Below, piece after piece: positions 1,000 through 64,000 of a stretch of 64,000 nt of DNA. The notes beneath the pieces were generated by a model that worked only from the letters and a program-made list of their open reading frames with translations, was not told the DNA's origin and searched no databases. How positions within the stretch are numbered: the stretch's first letter is position 1; each line of letters starts with the position of its first letter. This stretch comes from Bryobacteraceae bacterium (GTDB lineage: Bacteria; Acidobacteriota; Terriglobia; Bryobacterales; Bryobacteraceae): contig JANWVY010000002.1 in the NCBI GenBank assembly GCA_025056455.1, positions 296,737 through 360,736 on the forward strand. Direction: 5' to 3'. The position numbers were made by a program, and so were the translations under genes.

Positions 1000-2226
1000 T
1001 CAAAAGCCAAGAGCTTTCTCCACCTCCGCTGTGTAACGGCTGAGCTCAGAAGGATTCCGCAACAGGTTCCAGAGCCCGACATTGGCGTTCAACTCGAGCA
1101 GCTTCTCTGCCGCCACGTAGGCGTAAGCGTAGGCCAGGCGAGCATGCCCGGCACTAAAGCGGGAAAACGACGTCCCAAGCTCGGCCAGCCGGGGCAGCTG
1201 CCTGGCTTTTAAAAGCGCCAAGACTACGGCTCTCTGCTCGGGATCCAGAGTTTCCCCAGAAAATTTCTGCGCCAGGCCTTCTTGAAGCCAGGCGGGCCAG
1301 GCCCCGAGTTCGGCCAGACACGCGTGCACCAGCTCGTGCGCGAACACTTGGCGCAAGGCCTCAGTCACCTTCGGCGCCTCCATCACTGGAACATGAATGC
1401 GGCCGTCATACATCCCTCCGCTCCATTCGGCGGCAGCAGTACTTTGCAAATAAGTTTCGCGCCGCTGTGCAATCGCGGTGAGCCTTTCCGTTCCCCGGCA
1501 GCCAAGCTGGGCCGAAATGCGAGTGTACTCTTGATCGAGTACCTCTACCATGGCCCGCGCCAGCTCTGCGCTCACACTGCCCCGTTCATAGCGGAGGACA
1601 ACCCGCACGCCACTCATCCGTTCCGAGCCTTTGTCAGCCTCTTTTTCGCGCAGAGCGCGCTTGAGCAGTTGCTCCACACCGGGGTGAGGCTCTAGGTTCA
1701 GCGATTCGCGAAAAGCCAAAATGGCGCGCTCGAGCTCATCGCTCTGAAAGTAGGCTAGCCCGGCCACGGCCCATAGGTAAGCATTGCGCGGCCTTTTCTT
1801 AAGCTCCACATCCAACATGCGCAGCGCCTCAGCCGGTTGCTTGGCTTGAATCTGTTCAAGGGCCTTCCGAGCGGGATGGTCCTTCTGCGCCGGTTGCAGG
1901 ATGCTGGCCGCCGGTACCTTGACCTCTGACGGGTTTCGAGCCCCAGCATCGAAACCCTGCGCGCGGCGCCGCGCTTGCTCAAACGAACCATCGCCTCGCA
2001 GCAGGGAAGCAGGAACATACCCGCTGACCTCTACGCCGACGAGCTTGGCCACGATCTTGTAACATCGGCCCGCACCGCCCGAAATCGCGCTGCGAATTTC
2101 GACCTGCTGGCCAGCTGGCAACCGCGCAATCTCCCGATCCTCCGTCTCGCAGCCGCTGCGCAGAGGAGCCTCCACAGAGAGCGTAGCTGCAGTCCACGCC
2201 AATCCCAACCACCAGGGCGCCGCCAT
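1000..2226 (-). CDS. TPR-containing gluzincin-type metallopeptidase (peptidase MA-like)
   Basis: A 408-aa protein. An N-terminal signal-like segment (about residues 1-20) is followed by an SH3-like stretch (about 25-80, ending GYVPASLL). TPR-like helices span about 115-185 (LWAVAGLAYFQSDELERAILAFRES). A C-terminal zinc-protease domain carries HELVH near residue 300 and, downstream, WLQEGLAQ, which fits an HExxH...E gluzincin such as the peptidase MA family. It is probably secreted and anchored or scaffolded through its TPRs. Substrate is unknown. The ATG at 2226 is preceded by TAGGAT 6 nt upstream and no Shine-Dalgarno, so a leaderless transcript is possible. The gene is separated by 199 bp from the next minus-strand gene. 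Confidence 0.82.
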   Translation of the reverse strand: MAAPWWLGLAWTAATLSVEAPLRSGCETEDREIARLPAGQQVEIRSAISGGAGRCYKIVAKLVGVEVSGYVPASLLRGDGSFEQARRRAQGFDAGARNPSEVKVPAASILQPAQKDHPARKALEQIQAKQPAEALRMLDVELKKRPRNAYLWAVAGLAYFQSDELERAILAFRESLNLEPHPGVEQLLKRALREKEADKGSERMSGVRVVLRYERGSVSAELARAMVEVLDQEYTRISAQLGCRGTERLTAIAQRRETYLQSTAAAEWSGGMYDGRIHVPVMEAPKVTEALRQVFAHELVHACLAELGAWPAWLQEGLAQKFSGETLDPEQRAVVLALLKARQLPRLAELGTSFSRFSAGHARLAYAYAYVAAEKLLELNANVGLWNLLRNPSELSRYTAEVEKALGF

Positions 2227-52541: not shown

Positions 52542-52569
52542 TTGACAATTCAAACGAGAATCTGATACT
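52542..52569 (+). promoter_or_regulatory. sigma70-type promoter of the corrinoid operon
   Basis: TTGACA at 52542-52547, 16-bp spacer, GATACT at 52564-52569. A start near 52576 begins the RNA at the 5' side of the riboswitch. Confidence 0.72.
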
Positions 52570-52572
52570 GTG

Positions 52573-52765
52573 AGAGGGCTCTAGGTGGCCCAGCCATGGG
52601 CATAACAGGGAAGCCGGTGAGAATCCGGCGCGGTCCCGCCACTGTGAGTGAGGGTGGTTCGGTCAGAATCCACTCGGGTGCGTAGCCCCGCTATAGGGAA
52701 GGCTCCGGGGAAGGAGATCGAGCCCGCGAAGCAATTCGCAACCTCCGAGCCAGGAGACCTACCTA
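52573..52765 (+). ncRNA. cobalamin (B12) riboswitch aptamer
   Basis: The region carries the invariant core of B12 riboswitches: CATAACAGGGAAGCCGGTGA (52601-52620), AATCCGGCGCGGTCCCGCCA followed by CTGTGA (52622-52647) and the B12 box GAGCCAGGAGACCTACC (52747-52763). The peripheral arms lie in between. Adenosylcobalamin-type ligands bind this RNA and usually lower expression of uptake or synthesis genes. It lies directly upstream of an adenosyltransferase and two importer sets, which fits. Confidence 0.95.
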
Positions 52766-52888
52766 GGGATTACGAGCAGGACTTTCTGCGGAGAACGGAA
52801 AGGATGCGCACCACAATCCCTACCTATTTTCCATACGATTGCCCGTTGCGAAGCTCTTCGCAGCAAGTCCCCAAAAGATTGTGGGAGG
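52764..52888 (+). promoter_or_regulatory. riboswitch expression platform with alternative helices over the ribosome binding site
   Basis: TAGGGATT (52764-52771), directly after the B12 box, pairs perfectly with AATCCCTA (52815-52822). CCACAATC (52811-52818) pairs perfectly with GATTGTGG (52877-52884), which runs into the Shine-Dalgarno GGGAGG (52883-52888). The two 8-bp helices share 52815-52818 and exclude each other. A small hairpin (TGCGAA, loop GCTC, TTCGCA, 52847-52862) sits in the loop of the second. This predicts translational control. Confidence 0.7.
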
Positions 52889-52894
52889 ATCGCG

Positions 52895-53473
52895 ATGAGC
52901 ATCGCCACCAAGCGAGGTGATGGCGGACAAACCGGACTGGCCGGCGGAATCCGCGTTTCCAAGTCTTCGTTGCGCGTCGAAAGCTACGGCGGAATTGATG
53001 AGCTCAATTCCGCTCTGGGCCTTGCCCGTGCGCTTTGCGGAGATGAGGAGCTAAAACGCCGGACTAAGGAGATCCAGCGGGACTTGTTCCGCGTGGGTTC
53101 AGCCCTGGCGACGCCACCAGAAAGCCGAAAACCGCAGGTGATCATTTCGCAAGAAATGGTTGACGCGCTCACCGCCCAGGTGCACGAGCTGGAGGCGATC
53201 GAAGGCCTCCTTTCAGACTGGTCGCTGCCGGGTGAGGATGTCGAATCCGCCGCCTTTGATTTGGCCCGCACCATCTGCCGTCGCGCCGAGCGCAATATTG
53301 TCCGGCTGGCCGAAGCAGGCGAAGCGGTCCAGTCGTCGATTCTGGCCTACATCAACCGCCTTTCCGATCTGCTCTGGCTGTTTGCGCGCAAAGTTGAGCT
53401 CAACAAAAACGCCAAGAGCTCTCTGCGCGAACTCAACGGCAAGCAGGGCCCACGCTGGTCGCGCGCGTGGTAG
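52895..53473 (+). CDS. pduO: cob(I)alamin adenosyltransferase, PduO type
   Basis: A 192-aa ATP:cob(I)alamin adenosyltransferase. Motifs: TKRGDGGQTGLAGG (residues 5-18, ATP site), SYGGIDELNSALG (about 30-42), RTICRRAERNIVRL (about 124-137) and INRLSDLLWLFAR (about 153-165). These are the trimer-type PduO/MMAB signatures. It converts cob(I)alamin to adenosylcobalamin, trapping imported corrinoid as cofactor. The start ATG 52895 has GGGAGG 6 nt upstream, and that site is the target of the riboswitch helix. First gene of the operon; the next gene starts 28 nt after its stop. Confidence 0.95.
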   Translation: MSIATKRGDGGQTGLAGGIRVSKSSLRVESYGGIDELNSALGLARALCGDEELKRRTKEIQRDLFRVGSALATPPESRKPQVIISQEMVDALTAQVHELEAIEGLLSDWSLPGEDVESAAFDLARTICRRAERNIVRLAEAGEAVQSSILAYINRLSDLLWLFARKVELNKNAKSSLRELNGKQGPRWSRAW

Positions 53474-53501: not shown

Positions 53502-54122
53502 ATGTCACAGCTAGCCGAAATTCGTCCTCCCCGCTTTGATTGGATAGAACGCAGTCCTGACGGCACGCTGACGGCCTTCACGGAGATTCCACTCGCTCCA
53601 GGCGTGATGCGCCGCCTCATGGATGAATTGTTCGTTCAACATTGGAGCCGCATCGTTGTTGGTCCCTGCGTGCAAGGGGCAGTCTTCGAAATTCGGTTCG
53701 TTGAGCCGCCAAAGTTGCATTACCTGGATGGCTATCTCACGGTGGATCTCGGGGCCTGGCATTTCCATTTGTGCGTCGAAGAACACCGCGGATCGCGTTC
53801 GGAAGAACTGCGCCGCATGCGACCCGTCGCGAAGGCAGCGTTCTGGGAGCGGCGACCAGCGCCAGACCAACGCTGGGCTGGATGCGTAGAACGGTCCTGG
53901 GGTCTGCGCCTGTGGAACGGATACGGCGAGCAGATGACAACAATCTTCCTGCCGAATGTCAGCCTGTCCGACGAGCTGAAGATTTTGAAACAGCCCGACT
54001 GGTCTCGGCTGGAGCTCTACTACCACTTGCGCGCGCAATTTTTGAACGAACCCATTCCGGAGAGCTTTGAGGAAACGGCGAAGCTGCCTCTGGTCGCGCC
54101 CGAGAGGCAAGTAACGTCATGA
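53502..54122 (+). CDS. unrecognised protein of the corrinoid operon
   Basis: A 206-aa protein starting at ATG 53502 with AAGGAGAAA upstream. No signal peptide or membrane helix, so it is probably cytoplasmic. It has many aromatic and His/Cys positions: FVQHWSRIVVGPCVQGAVFE (about 44-63), LDLGAWHFHLCVEEHRGS-like stretch (about 83-100; HFHLC may bind metal) and CVERSWGLRLWNGYGEQM (about 128-145). The C-terminus is helical. I cannot assign a known family. It sits between an adenosyltransferase and a binding protein, whose start overlaps its stop (ATGA). A role in corrinoid or cobalt handling is inferred from position only. Confidence 0.85.
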   Translation: MSQLAEIRPPRFDWIERSPDGTLTAFTEIPLAPGVMRRLMDELFVQHWSRIVVGPCVQGAVFEIRFVEPPKLHYLDGYLTVDLGAWHFHLCVEEHRGSRSEELRRMRPVAKAAFWERRPAPDQRWAGCVERSWGLRLWNGYGEQMTTIFLPNVSLSDELKILKQPDWSRLELYYHLRAQFLNEPIPESFEETAKLPLVAPERQVTS

Positions 54123-55117
54123 AAGTGGCCTGCCATCGCTGGGCTGCTTCGCCGCTAGCGTTCCTGCTGGTCAGCCTCGGTGGGTTAACAGCGGCCGTTG
54201 AGCGGTGGGCGCCCACTTCAGGCGTGATCCATCCGCTCCGCGCCTCGCCCGCCAAAACAGAACCCCACATCCGTACAGGTGCGCTTGAGTATCCCCGTGT
54301 GGTTTGGGATGTCGACGGTGTCGCGGTGAAAGTGCCACGCCCGGCGCGCAGCATCGTCTCTCAATACTGGTCCATCGACGAGTTTGTATATACCGTGGCG
54401 CCGCCCGAGTTGGTGACCGGCGTGAGCGAGAGCGCCTACCAGCAGCGCATCAGTAACGTCTACGCGCATGTGCTCCGGCACAAGCCCGTCGTGGCGACCG
54501 ACCCAGAGCGCGTGCTGCGCTTGAATCCCGATTTGATTCTAGTGTCGAGCAGCGCCCGGGCCGACTTTACTGCGCTGGTCCGCTCGACAGGCATTCCAAT
54601 TGTGCGCCTGTACACCGTGTTCACAACCCTCGAGCAAGTGGCCGAATCCATCCGCCTGGTCGGATATCTCACCGGTCAAGATGAGACAGCCCAGCGCGAG
54701 TATGAGCGCTTTCTGCAAGCGGTGCAGCGGGCCCGGCGACGGCGCCCCCCACATCAACCGCCGCCGCGCATTCTGGGTCTCGGAGGCCGCTACAGCTATG
54801 GCCAGGAGACCCTCTTTCACGACATCGTTCACACGCTGGGCGGCGTCAACGTCGGAGCAGAAGCAGGATTGCGAGGTTATGACGCCATCAACTCGGAACA
54901 GATCCTCAGAGCCGATCCGGAGTGGATCGTCGCGGGGGCAGATTTCGGAAAAACCGCGCAACAACGAGCCAAGCTCCTTTCGGATCCGGCCATCGCTCTA
55001 ACCCAGGCGGCCAAAAACGGCCGAATTCTAGTGTTCGACCAGCGGGTGTTTCTGCCCATGTCGCCGTACACACGGCTGTTGCTAGAGGCTCTAGGAGACG
55101 AGCTCTATGGTCGCTAG
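54119..55117 (+). CDS. corrinoid/iron-type ABC transporter substrate-binding protein (first set)
   Basis: A 332-aa class III binding protein. A signal-like N-terminus (about 8-25) is followed by a long extension (about 26-75), then the two-lobed fold: VPRPARSIVSQYWSIDEFVYTV (about 74-95, split here by its core), ERVLRLNPDLILVSSS, LGLGGRYSYGQETLFHDIVHTLGG and AINSEQILRADPEWIVAG. Such proteins deliver B12, haem or siderophores to FecCD/BtuC permeases. No lipobox is seen, which fits a diderm. It overlaps its neighbours (4 nt upstream, 11 nt into the permease). Confidence 0.88.
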   Translation: MKVACHRWAASPLAFLLVSLGGLTAAVERWAPTSGVIHPLRASPAKTEPHIRTGALEYPRVVWDVDGVAVKVPRPARSIVSQYWSIDEFVYTVAPPELVTGVSESAYQQRISNVYAHVLRHKPVVATDPERVLRLNPDLILVSSSARADFTALVRSTGIPIVRLYTVFTTLEQVAESIRLVGYLTGQDETAQREYERFLQAVQRARRRRPPHQPPPRILGLGGRYSYGQETLFHDIVHTLGGVNVGAEAGLRGYDAINSEQILRADPEWIVAGADFGKTAQQRAKLLSDPAIALTQAAKNGRILVFDQRVFLPMSPYTRLLLEALGDELYGR

Positions 55118-56159
55118 ACGGCTTCCGGCGGGATGGTATTACGGGGTCTCGCTTCCGGCTTTCGCCCTCGCCCTCGTGGCGGCGGTAGCGATTGGAAGTA
55201 CACCACTAGCCTGGTCAGTTGTGCTGCAATGCGCAGCCAAGCTGCTGTTGCCGCAAGGTTGGGTAGATACTTCCCAAGTCACCAAAGCGGATGAAGTGAT
55301 TTTTTGGATGATCCGCTTTCCGCGCGTCATAGTGGCGGCTTTGGTTGGCGCGGGGCTCGCCACAGCCGGCGCAATCATGCAAGCCATCTTCCGAAACCCG
55401 CTGGCCGAGCCCGGGCTTACGGGCGCAGGCGCGGGCGCAGTGCTCGGCGCGGTGGTCGCCTTCGTGATGGGTTGGAGCACGCAGGCCCCTTCAAGCTTGC
55501 CAGCCTGCGCCATGGCTGGCTCGCTGCTTGCGCTGGCCGTCGTGTACTTCATGGCGACCCGCGGCGGGGTGACTCCCATGGCAAGCCTCCTGCTGGCTGG
55601 TATCGCCACCACATCGTTGCTGTCAGCGATCTCCAGCTTGTTGCTTTCTTTGAACATCGTGAACTGGCAAATTGCACAAGAAATCGTCTTCTGGATGATG
55701 GGCGGGCTCGATGCCCGCAGTTGGACTCACGTCTGGCTGTGTGGGCCGTTTGTGCTGTTTGGCGGACTCGTAGCTTTGCTCTACTCGCCAGAGTTAGATC
55801 TCCTCCAGCAAGGTGAAGAAGTGGCGGCTTCCCTCGGCGTGAACGTCGAAAAAACCAAGCGGATCTTCATTCTTACGGCAGCGGTTCTCACCGGAGCTTC
55901 GGTGGCCGTGGCTGGAATGGTCGGTTTCGTGGGGCTCGTCGCACCCCATGCCGTACGCCTGCTTTTGGGTCCTTCTAATCGTACCTTGCTGCCAGCGAGC
56001 GCCCTGTGCGGAGCCCTCTTTCTTGTGCTTTGCGATTTGATGGCGCGCACCGCTCATCCTCCCGTCGAGCTGCGATTAGGGGTGATTACTTCGCTCGCCG
56101 GTGGCCCTTTGTTCATCGCTTTGCTGTTACGGCGTCACCAGGAGGCAAGCCGCGCATGA
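55107..56159 (+). CDS. BtuC/FecCD-type ABC permease (first set)
   Basis: A 350-aa protein with about ten membrane helices. Family signatures: IRFPRVIVAALVGAGLATAGAIMQ (about 69-92, seen as RFPRVIVAALVG and GAIMQAIFRNPLAEPG), LLLAGIATTS, WMMGGLDARSW and GFVGLVAPHAVRLLLGPS (about 272-289; coupling helix GLVAPHAVR). Substrates of the family are B12, haem or ferric siderophores. It overlaps the binding-protein gene by 11 nt and the ATPase gene by 4 nt. Confidence 0.92.
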   Translation: MVARRLPAGWYYGVSLPAFALALVAAVAIGSTPLAWSVVLQCAAKLLLPQGWVDTSQVTKADEVIFWMIRFPRVIVAALVGAGLATAGAIMQAIFRNPLAEPGLTGAGAGAVLGAVVAFVMGWSTQAPSSLPACAMAGSLLALAVVYFMATRGGVTPMASLLLAGIATTSLLSAISSLLLSLNIVNWQIAQEIVFWMMGGLDARSWTHVWLCGPFVLFGGLVALLYSPELDLLQQGEEVAASLGVNVEKTKRIFILTAAVLTGASVAVAGMVGFVGLVAPHAVRLLLGPSNRTLLPASALCGALFLVLCDLMARTAHPPVELRLGVITSLAGGPLFIALLLRRHQEASRA

Positions 56160-56941
56160 GCACGCTGGAGGCACGCAACATTAGCGTTACCAAAACTGGA
56201 AGATCCATTCTTCAGCAAGTGACCCTGTGCGCCCATCGCTCAGAATTGTTGTTCGTCGTAGGACCGAATGGAAGCGGCAAGAGCACCCTGTTGCGGGCCT
56301 TATGTGGCCTCTGGCCCGTGGCGCACGGCCAAGTTCTGCTCGATGGGAGTCCGGTTGAAAACCTGCACCGCCGCCTGCTCGCCACGCGTGTGGGCTACGT
56401 CCCCCAAAACACCTGGATCGACTTCGCTTTCTCGGTGCGGGAAATCGTCGCCATGGGACGCTACCCCCACCGCGGCCGGTTCGCCCCCGAGACGGGAGCT
56501 GACCGTAAAGCAATCGGCGAAGCCATTCAGCAGTGCGACCTGAGCCATCTTGTGGAACGGCCTGTTCATACGCTGTCCGGTGGGGAGCGCCAGCGTGTCG
56601 CCATCGCTCGGAGCCTCGCCGTAGAGCCAGATTTTCTCCTCCTTGACGAGCCAACCGCCAGTCTTGACATCGAGCACGCGCTGCAAATTTTTCAATTGTG
56701 CCGGCAGCTGGCCTCCGCAGGGCGGGGTGTCGTCCTGGCGACTCACGACCTCAATCTAGCTTTGCGATATGCCGACCGCATCGCGCTGTTGCGGGACGGC
56801 GAGCTGGTTAAGTTAGGATCGCCCGGCGAAGTGCTCGTTCCAGACGTGCTCGAGGAGGTGTTTCGAGTGAAAACGGAACCGGTGACCACGCCCTGCGGAG
56901 TAACAGTTCTCGCTTTTCAACCTTTGAGGAGACTTCTCTAA
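56156..56941 (+). CDS. ABC transporter ATP-binding protein (first set)
   Basis: A 261-aa ATPase of the FepC/BtuD class. Walker A is GPNGSGKST (about 38-46), the Q-loop is YVPQNTW, the signature is LSGGERQR (about 139-146), Walker B is FLLLDEPTASLD and the switch His is in LATHDLN. ATG 56156 is set by the ATGA overlap with the permease stop; a longer in-frame reading to 56006 is rejected. Its last base is the first base of the receptor's start (TAATG). Confidence 0.93.
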   Translation: MSTLEARNISVTKTGRSILQQVTLCAHRSELLFVVGPNGSGKSTLLRALCGLWPVAHGQVLLDGSPVENLHRRLLATRVGYVPQNTWIDFAFSVREIVAMGRYPHRGRFAPETGADRKAIGEAIQQCDLSHLVERPVHTLSGGERQRVAIARSLAVEPDFLLLDEPTASLDIEHALQIFQLCRQLASAGRGVVLATHDLNLALRYADRIALLRDGELVKLGSPGEVLVPDVLEEVFRVKTEPVTTPCGVTVLAFQPLRRLL

Positions 56942-59388
56942 TGCCGATCATGTTGTATTTATTCTTCTTGCTCCCAGCGGCTTTCGCCCAAAATACTCCG
57001 GAAAGTTCCACGGCCAGCTTGAAGGGCTCGGTCCGGGACGGACAGGGAAAAGCGGTTTCTGGAGCACGCATTCGCCTCTTCCGGCAGGACATGAACACCT
57101 TTCTTCAAGCCACAGCGGACGCATCTGGCAATTTCGTCTTCGAGCAGCTCGTGCCCGGTTCGACCGTCTTGCAGATCGAACGGGACGGCTTCCGCAGTGT
57201 CACCCGGAGCTTGGATCTGGCCAAAGGAGAAACTAGGCAAGTTGAGGTGACACTCGAGCTCGCCGGAGTAGCGCAATCGGTCATGGTCACCGCGTCAGCA
57301 ACGCCACAATCCGTTGATGAAATCGCCAAGGCGACGAGCATTCTCACCACCGAAGAGATTCAAGCACGCAATGAGTACTCGCTAGCCGAGTCCCTCCGCA
57401 CCGTGCCCGGGGTCTTAATCACCAATGGCGGCGGGCCCGGCCAATTTACGCAAATTCGCGTACGGGGCTTGCGGCCCGACGCCACCGCCGTTCTCGTCGA
57501 CGGGCTTCGCTTTCGTGATGCCTCCACCACACAGGCAGACGCCACCTCGTTTGTTTCCGCTTTGAATCTTGTGGGAGCAGAGCGGGTGGAAATCGTGAGA
57601 GGCTCTGGCTCCTCGCTCTATGGCACAAACGCTGTAGGCGGAGTGATCAACGTCATTACTCAGGAAGGAGGATCTCCGCTGCACGGCGGACTCCTGTTCG
57701 AAGGTGGCGCACTCGGATTCTTTCGGGGCAGAACAACGGTGGGCGGCGGCTGGAAAGAAAACCGCCTGCGATATTCCGGGAGCCTGTTGCACGTGAACGT
57801 GACCAGAGGCGTTGACGGCAACGACGCCAACCGCAGCACGGGCGGGCAAGGCTTTCTGCGCTATGATCTGACTCCCAAGATGAGTTTGAGCGGGCGCGTC
57901 TGGGCATCCGATGACTTTGTTCAACTCAACATTAGTCCCACGACGGCCGGCATTCCAGCCGCCAATTTTCCCGCTACAGGCGTCATTCCAGTGTCTGTGC
58001 TCTCGCCGGAGAACGTGCTCCGGCTCAACTCCGGTTTAGCGCCCGATTGGCGCGGAGTCACCTTGATTCCAGGCCGCGACGATCCCGACAACCGCCGCTC
58101 GTCGCGGCATGCCACCACCGCCTTCATCTTCCGGCATATGCTAAATTCGCGGCTAAACTGGCAATCCAGTTATCAGCGCGTGCATACCTCTCGTGTTTTT
58201 CAGAACGGTCCAGCCGGCACCGGTTTTCAACCCGCAGCCCTCAATTATGGCAATTATGTCGGCGATATCGACACCGTAGATGCGCGCTTCAACGCGTTCC
58301 TGAGCGCCTGGCTTACCCTCACAGCGGGTTACGAATTCGAACGCGAGCGATACTTCGACCATCAGAACAACAATCTACCTGCTCCGCGGACTGTGGTCAG
58401 CCAGACCCGCATTCGCCAGGATGCCAACACCGGATACTTCGCCGCCCAACTCGCCCTGCTCCAGCGGCGTCTGCAAATTTCCCTCTCCGGTCGCGGGCAG
58501 TTCTTCGAACTCTCGCGACCGTCTTTCCGCTTAACGGGCACAGCCAACAACTATGATCGCGTGCCTCTCACCAGCCCGCCCAAGGCGCTCACCGGCGACG
58601 CTGCCATTTCGTACCTAATTCCCTCCAGCGGTACGAAACTTCGACTCCACTGGGGGAACAGCTACCGCGCGCCCTCCCTTTATGAGCGCTTTGGCGGCGG
58701 TTTTAGCTCCAATCCCATTACTGGCGTCGTCGTGTTCACCCCTTATGGCGACCCACGGCTGTCTCCCGACCGCTATCACTCGGTGGACGCTGGGCTCGAT
58801 CAGTACGCGTTCCAAAATCGTTTGCGAATTTCCGCCACTTGGTTTTACACGCGGGTGATTTCGGTTACGGCGTTTGATTCCAGCGGATTCCTCCGCCCCG
58901 AAACGGATCCCTTTGGCCGCTCGGTGGGCTATATCAACGGTTCAGGAGGCATCAGCCGCGGAGTGGAGTTCGGCGCCGAACTGCGCCCAACGAGCTCACT
59001 CGCCATCACGGGCGCTTATACTTACACCAATCCCATTCTCGATCGTGACATCACGGTGCAAGGATTCTGGCGCGTTTTCCAAGTGCCTTCCCATCTCACG
59101 TCGTTCGTGGTCACCAAGCGCTGGATCAAACGGCTCGACACCAACTTCGAGCTGTTCCGCTCCTCTCGTTATTTCAACTCCTACTTTGCTGTCAACCGCT
59201 CCCGAGCTTTTGAGTTCCCTGGTTTTACGAAGGCGGATTTTGTGGCAAGTTACCGCATCTGGGATCAAGAAGTGAAATCGGCGCGGCTGTATTTCAAGCT
59301 GGAGAACTTGCTCAATCAACGCTACTACCAGAACGGATGGCTAGCGCCCCGCGCAACGTTTCTTGCGGGCTTAGCGTTCGGTTTTTGA
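56941..59388 (+). CDS. TonB-dependent receptor of the corrinoid operon (BtuB-like role)
   Basis: An 815-aa receptor. A signal peptide (residues 1-16, ending AFAQ) and CarboxypepD_reg domain (about 24-105: LKGSVRDGQGKAVSGARIRL) precede a classic plug (about 112-235: MVTASATPQSVDEIAKATSI, SLAESLRTVPGVLITNGGG, RGLRPDATAVLVDGLR, VEIVRGSGSSLYGTNAVGG). The barrel ends FLAGLAFGF. Unlike the Oar-like receptors in this window it has a typical short plug/barrel of siderophore/B12 size. Its place between two BtuCD-like sets under a B12 riboswitch points to corrinoid uptake. It fits between the ATPase and the second binding protein with 1-nt contacts. Confidence 0.93.
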   Translation: MPIMLYLFFLLPAAFAQNTPESSTASLKGSVRDGQGKAVSGARIRLFRQDMNTFLQATADASGNFVFEQLVPGSTVLQIERDGFRSVTRSLDLAKGETRQVEVTLELAGVAQSVMVTASATPQSVDEIAKATSILTTEEIQARNEYSLAESLRTVPGVLITNGGGPGQFTQIRVRGLRPDATAVLVDGLRFRDASTTQADATSFVSALNLVGAERVEIVRGSGSSLYGTNAVGGVINVITQEGGSPLHGGLLFEGGALGFFRGRTTVGGGWKENRLRYSGSLLHVNVTRGVDGNDANRSTGGQGFLRYDLTPKMSLSGRVWASDDFVQLNISPTTAGIPAANFPATGVIPVSVLSPENVLRLNSGLAPDWRGVTLIPGRDDPDNRRSSRHATTAFIFRHMLNSRLNWQSSYQRVHTSRVFQNGPAGTGFQPAALNYGNYVGDIDTVDARFNAFLSAWLTLTAGYEFERERYFDHQNNNLPAPRTVVSQTRIRQDANTGYFAAQLALLQRRLQISLSGRGQFFELSRPSFRLTGTANNYDRVPLTSPPKALTGDAAISYLIPSSGTKLRLHWGNSYRAPSLYERFGGGFSSNPITGVVVFTPYGDPRLSPDRYHSVDAGLDQYAFQNRLRISATWFYTRVISVTAFDSSGFLRPETDPFGRSVGYINGSGGISRGVEFGAELRPTSSLAITGAYTYTNPILDRDITVQGFWRVFQVPSHLTSFVVTKRWIKRLDTNFELFRSSRYFNSYFAVNRSRAFEFPGFTKADFVASYRIWDQEVKSARLYFKLENLLNQRYYQNGWLAPRATFLAGLAFGF

Positions 59389-59389
59389 C

Positions 59390-60244
59390 ATGAAGCAGCT
59401 TCTGGCTTTCGTGCTGCTGCTCGCCGGGTGGCCGGCTTGGGCTCAGCCAGCACGCATTGTCTCCACTTCTCCCAGCATTACCGAGATTTTGTTTGCCCTG
59501 GGAGCTGGCCCTCATGTGGTGGGTGTATCGAACTACTGTCGCTATCCTCCCGAAGTGCGGCACCTGCCCAAAGTCGGGTCTTACCTGCGACCCAGCGCGG
59601 AGCGGATCGCGCAGTTACGGCCGGATTTGGTCATCATGCACCACACCCAACAAGACACGCTGAACCGCCTCCAAGCGCTCGGCATTCGAACTCAACTCGT
59701 GGAACAGGGTTCCCTCGCCAACCTCTTCGATACGATTCGCACGCTTGGCCGGGCCGTGGGACGGGAATCGCAAGCTGCTTCCCTGGCAGCGAACATTCAA
59801 GCGAAGATCCGCCCCCCGGCGCCAAGCCTTAAGCCAAACCCCCGGGTACTGATCGTCGTCGCACGAAATCCAGGTCAGCTGACGGGCCTCGTGGCAGCGG
59901 GGCCCGGCGCCTACTTAAGTGAACTCGTGGAAGCGGCGGGTGGCAGCAACGCCCTCACGCAGTCTAGCACCGTTCTCTACCCAAAGCTTTCGCTCGAAAC
60001 GGTAATTCATCTCAATCCGGACTACATTGTTGACGCCTCTGCCACCATGGATGCCTCCGAGGACACCCCGGAAAAACGAAGCGAGTTTCTCGCCCCCTGG
60101 ATGGCGCGCCAAGAACTGAGCGCGGTTCGCAACCGCCGCGTCGTCGCCACTTTTTCAGAGGCCATGGTAGTTCCAGGGCCTCGCGTCACCGAGGCGCTGG
60201 AAATCTTGAAAGCCGTGCTTTCGGATTGGGGGAAGCGTCCCTGA
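59390..60244 (+). CDS. corrinoid-type ABC transporter substrate-binding protein (second set, BtuF-like)
   Basis: A 284-aa binding protein with a clean signal peptide (residues 1-18, ending AWAQ). BtuF-type signatures: ARIVSTSPSITEILFALG (about 21-38), VVGVSNYCRYPPEV, SAERIAQLRPDLVIMH, LVEAAGGSNAL and SLETVIHLNPDYIVDASA. It is closer to canonical BtuF than the first binding protein, which has a long N-terminal extension. It begins 1 nt after the receptor stop and shares TGATG with the ATPase start. Confidence 0.91.
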   Translation: MKQLLAFVLLLAGWPAWAQPARIVSTSPSITEILFALGAGPHVVGVSNYCRYPPEVRHLPKVGSYLRPSAERIAQLRPDLVIMHHTQQDTLNRLQALGIRTQLVEQGSLANLFDTIRTLGRAVGRESQAASLAANIQAKIRPPAPSLKPNPRVLIVVARNPGQLTGLVAAGPGAYLSELVEAAGGSNALTQSSTVLYPKLSLETVIHLNPDYIVDASATMDASEDTPEKRSEFLAPWMARQELSAVRNRRVVATFSEAMVVPGPRVTEALEILKAVLSDWGKRP

Positions 60245-61008
60245 TGTCCACATTACAGGCCGAAAACCTCACCTACCGGGTCGACAGCAAGCTCATCGTG
60301 AGCGAGGTTTGCTTTCAAGCCTCAAGCGGCGAATTTCTTGCCGTGGTAGGAGTGAACGGAGCGGGCAAAAGTACGCTGCTCGATTTGCTGGCCGGTTTGA
60401 AACGGCCGACCTCCGGCCGCATTCTTGTCGACGGTAAAGCATTCCAGAATTTCACTCCTAGCGAGCGCGCCAGCTGGATCTGCCACCTGCCGCAAGCGGT
60501 CCGGGCAGACCTGCCCTTCACTGTGGAACAAATCGTGCGGATGGGCCGTTATCCGCGAGGCGATTCTTGGATGGAGTCAGCTGCGGATGCAGCAGCGGTG
60601 GAAGCCGCGATGCAGCGTGCCCGTTGTTTCGAATTCCGCCACCGCCGTTTCGCCACCTTAAGTGGAGGTGAACGTCAGCGCGTGTTGCTGGCCGCATGCC
60701 TGGCCCAAGCAGCGCGCATTCTGCTGCTCGATGAGCCAGCCACCTACCTTGACCTCGGCCATCAAATTCTCTGCTTTGAATTGCTCCGGGCCGAGGCCCA
60801 CAACGGTGCCCTTTGCTTTGCGGTTACCCATGACCTGAACCTTGCTCTGGCGCATTGTGACCGCTTGCTCGTTCTCGACCAGGGAAAACTGACCGCTGAC
60901 ATGACCGTTGCCGAAGCCTGGAGCGAGCCATCCTGGATGAGCAACTTCTCCGAGCGCTTGCGCATTTGCCGTTCACCAGAAGGCGAGCGGTGGATCGGCT
61001 ACGGATGA
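60244..61008 (+). CDS. ABC transporter ATP-binding protein (second set)
   Basis: A 254-aa ATPase. Walker A GVNGAGKST (about 36-44), signature LSGGERQR (about 140-147), Walker B ILLLDEPATYLD and switch His in AVTHDLN are complete. It starts within the stop of the binding-protein gene (TGATG) and overlaps the permease start by 4 nt. Gene order here is binding protein, ATPase, permease, while the first set is binding protein, permease, ATPase. Confidence 0.93.
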   Translation: MSTLQAENLTYRVDSKLIVSEVCFQASSGEFLAVVGVNGAGKSTLLDLLAGLKRPTSGRILVDGKAFQNFTPSERASWICHLPQAVRADLPFTVEQIVRMGRYPRGDSWMESAADAAAVEAAMQRARCFEFRHRRFATLSGGERQRVLLAACLAQAARILLLDEPATYLDLGHQILCFELLRAEAHNGALCFAVTHDLNLALAHCDRLLVLDQGKLTADMTVAEAWSEPSWMSNFSERLRICRSPEGERWIGYG

Positions 61009-61982
61009 CCATGGCAGGCCAAGGCAAATGGGTGGCGCTGAGCGCGGTGGCGGCCGTGGCTGCGGCGGTGTTCCTGCCCTGGATCGGCCCCTCGCCCATC
61101 GAGTTCAGCCGGGTTGTCGCCCACCAGCAACCGGATTACTTGATTTTTATGGAGCTCCGGCTTTCTCGCACCTTGCTCGGCCTGCTCGTGGGGGCCTCCT
61201 TGTCACTGGCCGGCGCGCTGTTCCAAGCCCTGTTACGGGACTCGCTAGCGACGCCTTACACGCTGGGCATCTCCTCCGGCGCCTCCTTTGGAGCCATTCT
61301 CACCATCACCTCCGGCCTGCCTTCGGTGGCCGGATTGCCAGCCGTGTGGGTCGGCGCTTTGCTCGGAGCAACCGCCGCGCTGGTGATTGTGGCGGGAGCT
61401 AGTGCGCAGCGAGGACAGCTCTCGAGTTTCCGCCTGTTACTTACGGGAATCTCGCTCAACGGAGTGTTTTCGGCTCTCATCCTGATGGTACACAGTACGG
61501 CCCGTGAATACCGCTCGATCTCCGTGACTCACTGGTTGCTCGGCAGCCTGGACTCGATACGCTACTCGGCGCTAACGGTTTTCGCGGTGGTAGCCTCTCT
61601 GATGGCTGCGATTTTATTGTCCCGCGCAAAACACTGGAATCTCTTGATGGTAGGCGAGGACTGGGCCGCCACACGCGGTGTTGATCCGCAGCGGTTGTTG
61701 CGACTTGGGTTTGTGTGTGGCTCCGTGTTGACGGCTACCGCCGTCGCGCTAGCCGGTCCCATCGGCTTTGTGGGGCTCATCGTCCCACACATTGTGCGGG
61801 CCCGGATCAGCGCCGATTACCGCATTCTGATGCCTTGTTCCTTTTTTCTGGGTGGAGTGTTATTGGCCGCCGCAGACGCCGCTGGCCGCATCGTGCTCGC
61901 CCCAGCGGAACTGCCCGCTGGAGCCATCATGGCGCTGCTCGGCGGTCCTTATTTGGTGTGGCTGGTGCGAAGGAGATCCTGA
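61005..61982 (+). CDS. BtuC/FecCD-type ABC permease (second set)
   Basis: A 325-aa polytopic permease from ATG 61005 (ATGA overlap with the ATPase stop). Signatures: ELRLSRTLLGLLVGASLSLAGALFQ (about 45-69, seen as RLSRTLLGLLVG and GALFQALLRDSLATP), LLLTGISLNG, HWLLGSLDSI and GFVGLIVPHIVRARIS (about 254-269). It differs clearly from the first permease. The stop overlaps the start of the CobN-type gene (TGATG). Confidence 0.92.
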   Translation: MTMAGQGKWVALSAVAAVAAAVFLPWIGPSPIEFSRVVAHQQPDYLIFMELRLSRTLLGLLVGASLSLAGALFQALLRDSLATPYTLGISSGASFGAILTITSGLPSVAGLPAVWVGALLGATAALVIVAGASAQRGQLSSFRLLLTGISLNGVFSALILMVHSTAREYRSISVTHWLLGSLDSIRYSALTVFAVVASLMAAILLSRAKHWNLLMVGEDWAATRGVDPQRLLRLGFVCGSVLTATAVALAGPIGFVGLIVPHIVRARISADYRILMPCSFFLGGVLLAAADAAGRIVLAPAELPAGAIMALLGGPYLVWLVRRRS

Positions 61983-64000
61983 TGTATTCGACGCCCTACC
62001 GCCTGCGCGTCGTGCGCGCTGATGGCCGCTTAGTCAACATCGTACAGAAGCGCGCGCATCTGTCATTCTGCTTCACCGGCTGTTGTTGCGGCCGGGTGGA
62101 CCGGGGCTATCCTCCCGTTCCTGCCGACACCTTCAAAACCGAGTGGCTGCGCCGCAAGCTGCGCAACGTGGTTCACCTCACGCGCGCCGGCTGCCTCGGT
62201 CCGTGTGTCCTGGCGAATGTCGTCAGCCTGGTGTTCGATGCCCGATCCATCTGGTTTCACTCCTTTGCCCATGACTGGCAGGTGCATGCCCTCTACGACT
62301 ACATCGAGGCCATGTTAAAGGCCGACCGCTTTCTTCCGCCGCCACCAGAACTGGCACCCTTTGCCTTCGACTACTATGACTGGCAAGTGAGGCCGCATCC
62401 GCCGGCTGAACAAGCGCCAGCCCCCGCCGTCAACCCCACGTCGCTAGCGTTCTTAACTCATGCCGACACGGACTTGCTTGCGCTCTCCCAGGCCCGCACT
62501 CTTCTTCCCGAAGGCCTCCAGGTGGTGGGAATTTCCCTGATGTCGGTGACCGACGAAACCGTGATGCAAGCCTGGCTTCAGGGCAAACTCAGTGAGGCGG
62601 CCGCGGTTCTGCTGCGCTTGCACGGACCTCCAGAACGTGTCCCTGGCTTTGATCTGCTCGCCTCAACCTGCCGCCAGCGCGGCCAGCGGTTAGCGATCGT
62701 CAGCGGCACGGGAGAACTGGATCCGCAGATGGTCGCGGCCAGTGACGTTCCGTTCGATGTGCTCGCGCCGCTGACCGCTTACCTGTTTCAAGGCGGCATC
62801 AATAATGTCGCCGAGGCGATGAAATTTCTCTCCGACCGCATTCTGCTAACCGGATACGGCTACGCGCCGGTCCAAATGACTCCCGAAGCTGGCGTCTATC
62901 TACCGGAACTGGAGGCGGCGACGGTTGAAGACTGGGAGCGGCAGAGGGATCCGAGCAAACCGGTGGCCGCCATCCTTTTTTACCGGGCGCATCTGCTCAG
63001 CGGGAATACAGCCTTTATCAGTGCCCTGACGGAAGCTCTCGAGCAGAACGGACTCGAGCCCTTGTGCGTGTTTACGCCTTCGTTGCGCCGCAGCGGTGAG
63101 GACATGCCTCTCGCATTGCGGCTGGTTGAATCAAGAGCCGACGTAATCATTTCCACCCTTTCCTTTGCCTACGGGGATGGCCAGCATGGCGATAGGACGG
63201 AGGGAGTCTTTGAGCGGCTGGACGTTCCCGTGATTCAGGCCATCACGGCCGGCATGCCAGAGTCGGGTTGGCGGGTGTCGGCCCGCGGCCTCAATCCGCT
63301 CGAAACAGCAATTAACGTGGCGCTGCCAGAGCTGGATGGAAAGATCATTACGGTGCCAATCTCTTTTAAGGACCGGCACCCCGAGCATGGTGCGTTTTTC
63401 TATTCCCCGAACGCGGAGCGTGTGGCCCGGCTTGCGGCCATCGCCGCCCGCATGGTGAATCTCCGCCGGAAACCCAATCCAGAAAAGCGCATCGCGTTCG
63501 TCTTGACAAACTCGTCGACGAAAGCCTCGCAAGTTGGCGCCGCGGTAGGCCTGGACGCGCCCGCTAGCCTGCTGCGGCTACTCGCCGCGCTGCGCGCGCG
63601 TGGCTACCAAATCGGCTCTCTGCCGGCCAGTAGCGATGATCTCATGCAGGCGCTCCTGGCGCGGGGCTGTTACGATCCGGAGCATCCGCTGGACAGCGCC
63701 GTAGCCTACCGGCTTGCCGTTAACCGGTACCGGAATTGGTACGATGCCCTGCCAGACCTGGTGCGGCGGAAGATGGAGAAGCACTGGGGAGCGCCCGGGC
63801 GTGAGGGCGCCGCCTGCTGGCGCGAGGGCGACAGCTACTTGTTCGCCGCTCTCGAATTCGGCCACGCCATTGTCGCCTTGCAGCCCCCGCGAGGCTACGG
63901 AATGGATCCCAACGCCATTTACCACACCCCTGATCTTCCTCCCACACACCACTACGCGGCTTTTTACCGCTGGTTAGCCATGCCACAAAGCCAAGGCGGC
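61982..64000 (+). CDS. cobN: CobN-type metal chelatase large subunit with N-terminal [2Fe-2S] ferredoxin domain, 5' part
   Basis: Partial gene; 673 codons are visible and the reading frame is open at the window end. Residues about 1-112 form a thioredoxin-like [2Fe-2S] ferredoxin domain with Cys30, Cys35, Cys71 and Cys75 (Cx4C, 35 residues, Cx3C), plus extra Cys34 and Cys36. After a Pro/Ala linker (about 135-155) the CobN/BchH fold begins at about 157 (LAFLTHADTDLLALSQART), with STLSFAYGDGQHGDR-like and FKDRHPEHGAF segments and AFVLTNSSTKASQVGAAVGLD (about 503-523). CobN inserts cobalt into hydrogenobyrinate diamide with ATP. It is the last visible gene of the riboswitch operon; no CobS/CobT or ChlI/ChlD partner is seen yet. 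Confidence 0.9.
   Translation, partial: MYSTPYRLRVVRADGRLVNIVQKRAHLSFCFTGCCCGRVDRGYPPVPADTFKTEWLRRKLRNVVHLTRAGCLGPCVLANVVSLVFDARSIWFHSFAHDWQVHALYDYIEAMLKADRFLPPPPELAPFAFDYYDWQVRPHPPAEQAPAPAVNPTSLAFLTHADTDLLALSQARTLLPEGLQVVGISLMSVTDETVMQAWLQGKLSEAAAVLLRLHGPPERVPGFDLLASTCRQRGQRLAIVSGTGELDPQMVAASDVPFDVLAPLTAYLFQGGINNVAEAMKFLSDRILLTGYGYAPVQMTPEAGVYLPELEAATVEDWERQRDPSKPVAAILFYRAHLLSGNTAFISALTEALEQNGLEPLCVFTPSLRRSGEDMPLALRLVESRADVIISTLSFAYGDGQHGDRTEGVFERLDVPVIQAITAGMPESGWRVSARGLNPLETAINVALPELDGKIITVPISFKDRHPEHGAFFYSPNAERVARLAAIAARMVNLRRKPNPEKRIAFVLTNSSTKASQVGAAVGLDAPASLLRLLAALRARGYQIGSLPASSDDLMQALLARGCYDPEHPLDSAVAYRLAVNRYRNWYDALPDLVRRKMEKHWGAPGREGAACWREGDSYLFAALEFGHAIVALQPPRGYGMDPNAIYHTPDLPPTHHYAAFYRWLAMPQSQGG

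Follow-up and report, generated by a model that had tools for sequence, protein, structure and literature searches.

Why would a cobalt chelatase begin with a ferredoxin? The question is raised by a gene at the end of a 64,000-nt stretch of DNA, here called the window, from a Bryobacteraceae bacterium (GCA_025056455.1, contig JANWVY010000002.1, positions 296,737-360,736, forward strand). The gene encodes a CobN protein preceded, in one frame, by a domain that resembles thioredoxin-like [2Fe-2S] ferredoxins. This fusion is real and conserved. As for its role, we favour, with a probability of roughly 0.4, that the domain is a thioredoxin-fold [2Fe-2S] ferredoxin type specialised for metal handling, namely cobalt supply, and fused to CobN. 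No domain-CobN fusion was found described in the open-licence PubMed Central literature that we searched, which is no proof of absence. Loci are labelled L and genomes G, each with a number, G000 being the window genome.

The fusion of a ferredoxin-type domain with CobN

The gene is made up as follows, all on the plus strand.

61982..64000, +, ferredoxin-like domain-CobN fusion gene; ATG at 61982, frame open to the window end and continuing beyond it
61982..62371, +, predicted thioredoxin-like [2Fe-2S] ferredoxin-type domain, residues 1-130 (profile, model, structure matches)
62069..62071, +, codon of C30, invariant (119/119), likely cluster ligand
62081..62086, +, codons of C34-C35, extra cysteine pair, one codon of which is TGA (probable selenocysteine) in some relatives
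62087..62089, +, codon of C36, invariant (119/119), likely cluster ligand
62192..62206, +, C71-LGP-C75, invariant cysteine pair (119/119 each), putative second ligand loop
62777..64000, +, start of the Pfam CobN-Mg_chel region, from residue 266 on

An earlier, sequence-only reading of this stretch had described a [2Fe-2S] ferredoxin domain whose frame runs without a stop into a CobN fold, and the whole genome bears this out: open from the ATG at 61982 past the end of the window, the frame comprises 1421 amino acids (L003:3719-7981). CobN-Mg_chel covers residues 266-1393 with 1282 bits, and with 1197 bits against a cut-off of 822 the protein passes the TIGR02257 model, which marks it as a genuine CobN. 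The Pfam scan returned CobN-Mg_chel only, with no cobW GTPase domain anywhere in the protein and no match over its N-terminal ~130 residues. The ATG overlaps the TGA of the preceding permease gene, and directly 3’ lies a partner gene of the AAA+VWA (ChlI/D) type (L003:7975-9603), in which AAA_5 and VWA_2 exceed their Pfam cut-offs and TIGR02442, at 493, stays below its cut-off of 779. In its full-length match and in the partner gene that follows, the protein is like the CobN of the class I cobaltochelatase CobNST; it differs in the extra N-terminal domain, and in belonging to a genome where CbiC was not detected and CobI stays below its cut-off.

The same reading had considered that a sequencing error might have joined two separate genes. 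Among 128 distinct DNAs encoding the domain, 71 have CobN at most 400 nt downstream on the same strand; 67 of these linked copies keep one frame open for 300 codons or more, or as far as the available sequence reaches, and three more are open across a TGA at the C34 position, which rules out such an error. In the remaining copy, L192, a stop follows the domain, so that this copy is no clean fusion.

The fold of the N-terminal domain was predicted with AlphaFold2 (13-row alignment; mean pLDDT 82.3, pTM 0.75). The top match of the model in the Protein Data Bank (PDB), by Foldseek, is the thioredoxin-like [2Fe-2S] ferredoxin of Aquifex (1m2a_A, E 4e-4), followed by NuoE-type subunits of complex I, HydB and the ferredoxin FeSI (5abr), with modest query-normalised TM-scores of 0.34-0.50 among the 50 matches listed. 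The thioredoxin-like ferredoxin fold and the likeness to NuoE put forward by the sequence-only reading are both recovered in the model. A family profile led to the same proteins in the PDB (HydB 7t2r_B, 1.5e-5; 5abr, 8.3e-5). A phmmer search of the PDB with the single domain gave nothing useful (13 matches, best E 0.072, 11 of them glucanase-type), and against NF041613, the NCBIfam model of Azotobacter-type 2Fe-2S ferredoxins, the domain reaches 24.4 bits at a cut-off of 195. From fold and profile we predict a [2Fe-2S] cluster.

Six cysteines are present in the window domain (C30, C34, C35, C36, C71 and C75; FCFTGCCCG...GCLGPC). For alignment and tree, 119 of the 128 domain DNAs were used, leaving out short, weak, duplicate or multi-stop rows, and in all 119 C30, C36, C71 and C75 are invariant. 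Position C34 holds Cys in 115 domains, a stop-codon X in three and Leu in one, and position C35 holds Cys in 115 and X in four. The sequence-only reading had named cysteines 30, 35, 71 and 75; all are present, but it had missed C34 and C36, and C36 fits a cluster ligand better than C35 because it is invariant and C35 is not. C35 as second ligand, from its Cx4C spacing alone, was thus rejected. Likely ligands are C30, C36, C71 and C75, with C34-C35 as an extra pair; this is an assignment that we infer, since the first loop varies in length (C-x2-CCC, C-x3-CCC or C-x6-CCC). With the Aquifex ferredoxin, Azotobacter FeSI, NuoE and the N-terminal domain of HydB, the domain shares the fold, the profile and the C-x3-C second loop, while its first loop, C-x(2,3,6)-CCC-G with the extra pair, and the lack of a Pfam match set it apart.

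To our knowledge, no Fe-S centre of CbiX-L, of the [2Fe-2S] ferrochelatases or of BchH takes the form of a thioredoxin-like domain on CobN. These tetrapyrrole chelatases, among which CbiX-L bears a 4Fe-4S centre and a His-rich tail, are alike in having an Fe-S centre of unclear purpose (PMC7689651), and the fusion can be regarded as a conserved variant of such Fe-S-bearing chelatases. A ferredoxin domain that is separable from CobN makes the question of what these centres do testable, helped by natural Cys/TGA variants and by a second host protein, the nitrile hydratase accessory protein discussed below.

How widespread is this architecture? A family-wide search and a phylogeny of fused and unfused CobN, both proposed by the sequence-only reading, show that the fusion is not unique to the window genome: it recurs in four phyla (Acidobacteriota, Chloroflexota, Deinococcus and Spirosoma), and a sampled CobN tree (28 rows) places all 16 fused proteins in a single clade, separated from the 12 unfused by a branch with an SH-aLRT of 100. 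The domain tree of 119 rows, from a quick search with few columns, needs five changes of the fused label; L192 is labelled fused there although a stop lies behind its domain. Profile searching of genome contigs gave 14 loci, all in Chloroflexota, 12 of them in frame with CobN, two of these across a TGA. By genome, the profile is present in 53 of 400 Chloroflexota, in 38 of 396 members of the class of G061 (a set overlapping the former), and in 29 of 396 genomes of the window’s own phylum, the window genome included. Of 60 relatives (11 of the same genus, 25 of the same family, the rest more distant) eight have the domain, two of them as weak matches. In plasmids, tblastn found 159 records; among the 30 matches listed, seven are near full length (Granulicella, five Deinococcus and Spirosoma), six of which are annotated simply as CobN at the match, and the other 23 align only from residue 153-222 on. 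A second domain copy in Herpetosiphon lies in two pieces about 1.5 kb apart (L085:4941-6884), apparently an interrupted gene, with COG0523 and ABC transporter genes nearby.

Probable selenocysteine at the extra cysteine pair

The window gene has Cys at every position where relatives have TGA. Three fused genes carry TGA at C34: L021 and L029 read CRG-TGA-CCGH, followed in frame by CobN (TGA at L021:235 and L029:10073), and L175 reads CATG-TGA-CCG (G1097, domain 1081-1470, minus strand). Four stand-alone genes, L077-L080, two copies each in G155 and G328, carry it at C35 and read C-[ND]-G-C-TGA-CG. A tRNA-Sec with anticodon TCA exceeds the gathering cut-off, at 70.7-76.4 bits, in all four TGA genomes examined (G061, G062, G155 and G328). 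The cut-off is also passed by five of 14 control genomes, and is hence not specific, and by genomes with Cys forms (G366, 74.3 bits; G172, 62.6; G411, barely, 48.6). SelB is over its cut-off in G061 and G062 and also in the window genome (G000:C22:753416-755254), which therefore probably uses selenocysteine although its own CobN has cysteine.

Behind the TGA, the hairpin reaches z-values against codon shuffles of -2.8 and -2.9 in L021 and L029 and of -0.6 to -1.6 in L077-L080, compared with -2.1 to +1.5 in 15 Cys homologues. At a permissive threshold, Rfam returned mostly microRNA noise around the TGA loci, and a sub-threshold cobalamin riboswitch in L029. Judged by codon position and genome content, the in-frame TGA is a probable selenocysteine, which would add a probable new selenoprotein family that includes a Sec-bearing CobN. 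As excerpted, a table of 119 selenoprotein families (PMC13188914) names no chelatase or CobN. It does list CobW-related and CopZ-type [2Fe-2S] selenoproteins, together with a ferredoxin-thioredoxin reductase entry and a ‘NADH:ubiquinone oxidoreductase subunit E’ (given as PF02508), which we set against the present domain by name only.

Cobalt supply as a proposed role, and its alternatives

What, then, could the domain do for CobN? A first answer comes from another protein to which it is fused. It lies N-terminal to a nitrile hydratase accessory protein in L025 and C-terminal to one in L103, L104 and L184, the accessory identity being taken from Pfam for L025 and from sequence likeness for the other three, with frames checked. 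The domain is also found near the accessory protein or subunits of a cobalt-type nitrile hydratase in L102 and L186, the latter locus adding a HupE/UreJ gene. Alpha subunits of the hydratase in all six loci contain VCTLCSCY, and CTLCSCY is a motif of the cobalt type (PMC2770081). In the domain tree, L025 and L184 fall among the CobN-fused domains (the closest forks reach only 80-81), L184 inside a starred set of 19 rows of which 17 are fused, and this position suggests that the domain has been shuffled between two cobalt-loading systems. Cobalt nitrile hydratase has no Co(I) and no corrin, and Co(I) is not required for it to mature. Because this domain is joined to the accessory protein of such an enzyme, metal handling is favoured as its task; and because CobN and cobalt nitrile hydratase have cobalt loading in common, and not Co(I) chemistry, cobalt supply is ranked first and electron donation to an adenosyltransferase second.

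The genes around stand-alone copies point the same way. They include COG0523 GTPases, NicO, CbtA, HupE, P-type ATPases bearing HMA domains, and cobalamin genes. A metal or cobalamin neighbour within 4 kb was present in 26 of 37 stand-alone loci (those with at least 8 kb of sequence and E <1e-15), compared with three of 20 control stretches placed by hand elsewhere in genomes that have the domain (Fisher p 8e-5); without the five loci that had supplied references the figures are 21 of 32 against 3 of 20 (p=5e-4). These p-values are optimistic, as the loci are partly kin. A CobN-family gene is absent from 18 of the 28 genomes with stand-alone copies (among them G172, which also has a fusion), so the domain works without CobN as well. 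Near the fused genes one finds, among others, a nickel/cobalt-type transporter, CbtA and BluB. In 68 CobN-linked loci the sequence extends 500 nt or more ahead of the domain; there, CobO is the commonest gene directly upstream (<400 nt; 37 loci), followed by BtuC (4), NiCoT (3), BtuD (2) and CbtA, BluB, CobB and BtuF (1 each), with nothing recognised in 18.

A mechanism can be proposed in which C30, C36, C71 and C75 would hold the [2Fe-2S] cluster, and the C34-C35 pair, as cysteine or selenocysteine, would form a thiol or selenol site that takes up or reduces incoming cobalt. The cluster would set the redox state of this site, and Co(II) would thereby reach the chelatase without loss or oxidation. 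The domain's part at CobN may thus roughly resemble that of the GTPase CobW in Proteobacteria. CobW is a Co(II) metallochaperone (PMC10206600) and, as a COG0523 GTPase, resembles the domain in its gene position by cobN and cobalt transporters, whereas the fusion protein has no cobW domain. Adjacency of cobW and cobN has been reported in general (PMC2770081), and in plasmids it holds for three of the four annotated loci with an unfused CobN, where cobW directly precedes cobN (Azotobacter, Comamonas and Sphingobium, not Tsukamurella). The domain was not found within ~6 kb of six unfused CobN loci (L195-L200). A cluster on a metal chaperone has been seen before in CopZ of A. fulgidus, a [2Fe-2S] domain fused to a copper chaperone and reported to reduce Cu(II) (PMC7558416), although the metal differs; selenocysteine forms of the CopZ-type family are listed (PMC13188914), a likeness to our domain by description only. 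More tentative is a fuller version of cobalt supply: an undescribed thioredoxin-fold ferredoxin domain, whose additional Cys-Cys pair would read Sec-Cys or Cys-Sec in some Chloroflexota, would have been shuffled between CobN and the nitrile hydratase accessory protein and may pass on cobalt under redox gating, either instead of CobW or alongside it, with Sec-CobN as a new selenoprotein family. Such a domain could help to explain cobalt loading wherever cobW does not adjoin cobN, with a possible use in the production of B12 and nitrile hydratase.

Several observations must however be held against cobalt supply. The fusion is patchy: none was found among the 36 genomes of the same genus or family that were sampled, seven others having a stand-alone or broken copy or a weak match, nor are the copies of the eight relatives fused to CobN in the stretches examined. 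By eye, no His-rich stretch is seen in the linker. The references for nitrile hydratase, HupE, P-type ATPase, NicO, one COG0523 and one CbtA came from the very loci tested, and with outside references only the neighbour test falls to 15 of 37 against 2 of 20 (p=0.018). Many loci are kin rather than independent events, 11 of the 37 stand-alone loci, both G155 TGA loci included, are without a metal-related neighbour, and some stand-alone contexts look like Zn or Cu rather than Co. The fused operon of D. deserti also has a gene for a GTP-binding, CobW-like protein, which means that the domain is no simple substitute for CobW.

A further such point, the stand-alone copy that lies between CobO and CbiB in L187, leads to the alternative that we rank second and consider unlikely, namely that the [2Fe-2S] domain reduces the Co(II) corrinoid to Co(I) for CobO or PduO, perhaps with channelling from CobN. 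The sequence-only reading, which had proposed this role next to reduction of the cobalt or corrin and to iron or redox sensing, had pointed to an adenosyltransferase in the same operon, and it is indeed there, of the PduO type (52895-53473); this gene, together with CobO upstream of so many linked copies, speaks for electron donation. Fusion to, or position beside, genes of a cobalt nitrile hydratase that matures without Co(I) argues against it, as do the many copies accompanied by COG0523, CbtA or P-type ATPase genes and no recognised adenosyltransferase. Moreover, a separate ferredoxin-like open reading frame (ORF) that could do the job exists at six fused loci (L160, L166, L167 and L170-L172). 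This small ORF shares a gene run with the fused CobN, where it stands just ahead of CobO, with the motif CNHGDC or CIHGNC ... CLGVC/CLGIC, and the two that were scanned match no Pfam family; it is a possible electron donor for CobO.

Other roles for the cluster would be less probable still. As a sensor of oxygen or iron status it might switch cobalt insertion on or off, and a low-confidence stretch after the domain (pLDDT <50 at 143-149) would suit the flexible linker of such a device; Fe-S centres that catalysis does not need are also known from other chelatases (PMC7689651). We regard this as improbable, since it leaves both the accessory protein fusions and the probable selenocysteine at the extra pair unexplained. 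Even less credence is given to reductive de-chelation, in which CobN would strip the metal from an imported tetrapyrrole with electrons from the ferredoxin. The CobN homologue HmuS uses NADH to de-chelate heme (PMC12583661), the fusion gene closes a run of TonB/ABC uptake genes, and the genome has no detectable CbiC and no CobI above cut-off. However, the protein passes TIGR02257, a B12 riboswitch precedes the operon, CbiC occurs in 17 of 27 fused-form genomes, and an AAA+VWA ATPase partner directly follows where HmuS needs no ATP (PMC12583661). A separate CobN-like gene of the window genome, L004:4752-8786, whose product has hydrophobic ends (by eye), fits HmuS better. HmuS is characterised by membrane anchors at both ends; in the fusion protein, judged by eye, none is seen at the N-terminus. 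That the domain is an inert relic, fused by chance and without function in cobalt chemistry, seems very improbable: its function is known from no experiment, but four cysteines invariant in 119 of 119 domains, conservation over four phyla, repeated metal contexts and the Cys/TGA exchange all argue for a function.

The corrinoid uptake operon of the window genome

The fusion gene lies at the end of the following run of genes, which overlap or stand 1 nt apart, except for 28 nt between the PduO and DUF7676 genes.

52566..52780, +, cobalamin riboswitch RF00174 ahead of the operon (104.4 bits, gathering 31.5)
52895..53473, +, PduO-type cob(I)alamin adenosyltransferase (PF01923 5e-51; TIGR00636 over cut-off)
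53502..54122, +, DUF7676 protein, function not assigned (PF24724 5e-51); ATG 53502, starts 28 nt after PduO, overlaps next gene
54119..55117, +, BtuF-like substrate-binding protein 1 (Peripla_BP_2)
55107..56159, +, FecCD/BtuC-type permease 1 (FecCD)
56156..56941, +, ABC ATPase 1 (ABC_tran); ATG 56156
56941..59388, +, TonB-dependent receptor (Plug + CarboxypepD_reg)
59390..60244, +, BtuF-like substrate-binding protein 2 (Peripla_BP_2)
60226..61008, +, ABC ATPase 2 (ABC_tran); TTG start listed, true start may lie further in
60966..61982, +, FecCD/BtuC-type permease 2 (FecCD); TTG start listed, TGA overlaps fusion ATG

What would a cobalt chelatase be for in this genome? At 98.94% completeness it gave no match to CbiC/CobH, and the best match to CobI/CbiL reached 53.6 bits at a cut-off of 163. 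On that account the window CobN probably serves corrinoid salvage, perhaps of metal-free corrinoids, and under the control region of a B12 riboswitch the fusion would act in this salvage before adenosylation. Elsewhere, CbiC was found in the 17 of 27 genomes mentioned above, in which the fused form was recognised by its CobN match or by frame length, and CobI is over its cut-off in three of 13 fused-form genomes examined, the same three that hold CbiC within those 13; G172, with a fused form, has neither CbiC nor CobI above cut-off. As such, the fusion occurs both with and without markers of corrin-ring synthesis, and its presence in genomes without them suggests corrinoid salvage, and that a cobalt chelatase can be useful to bacteria apparently unable to make the corrin ring.

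Two minor observations concern the same genome. The second CobN-family gene (L004:4752-8786, contig C11; 1008 bits to PF02514) encodes a product that by eye is hydrophobic at both termini and resembles the HmuS described in PMC12583661, and downstream of it lies an ORF that by eye resembles a TonB-type receptor. Furthermore, the DUF7676 protein is encoded inside the B12 uptake operon, between the adenosyltransferase and a BtuF-like gene.

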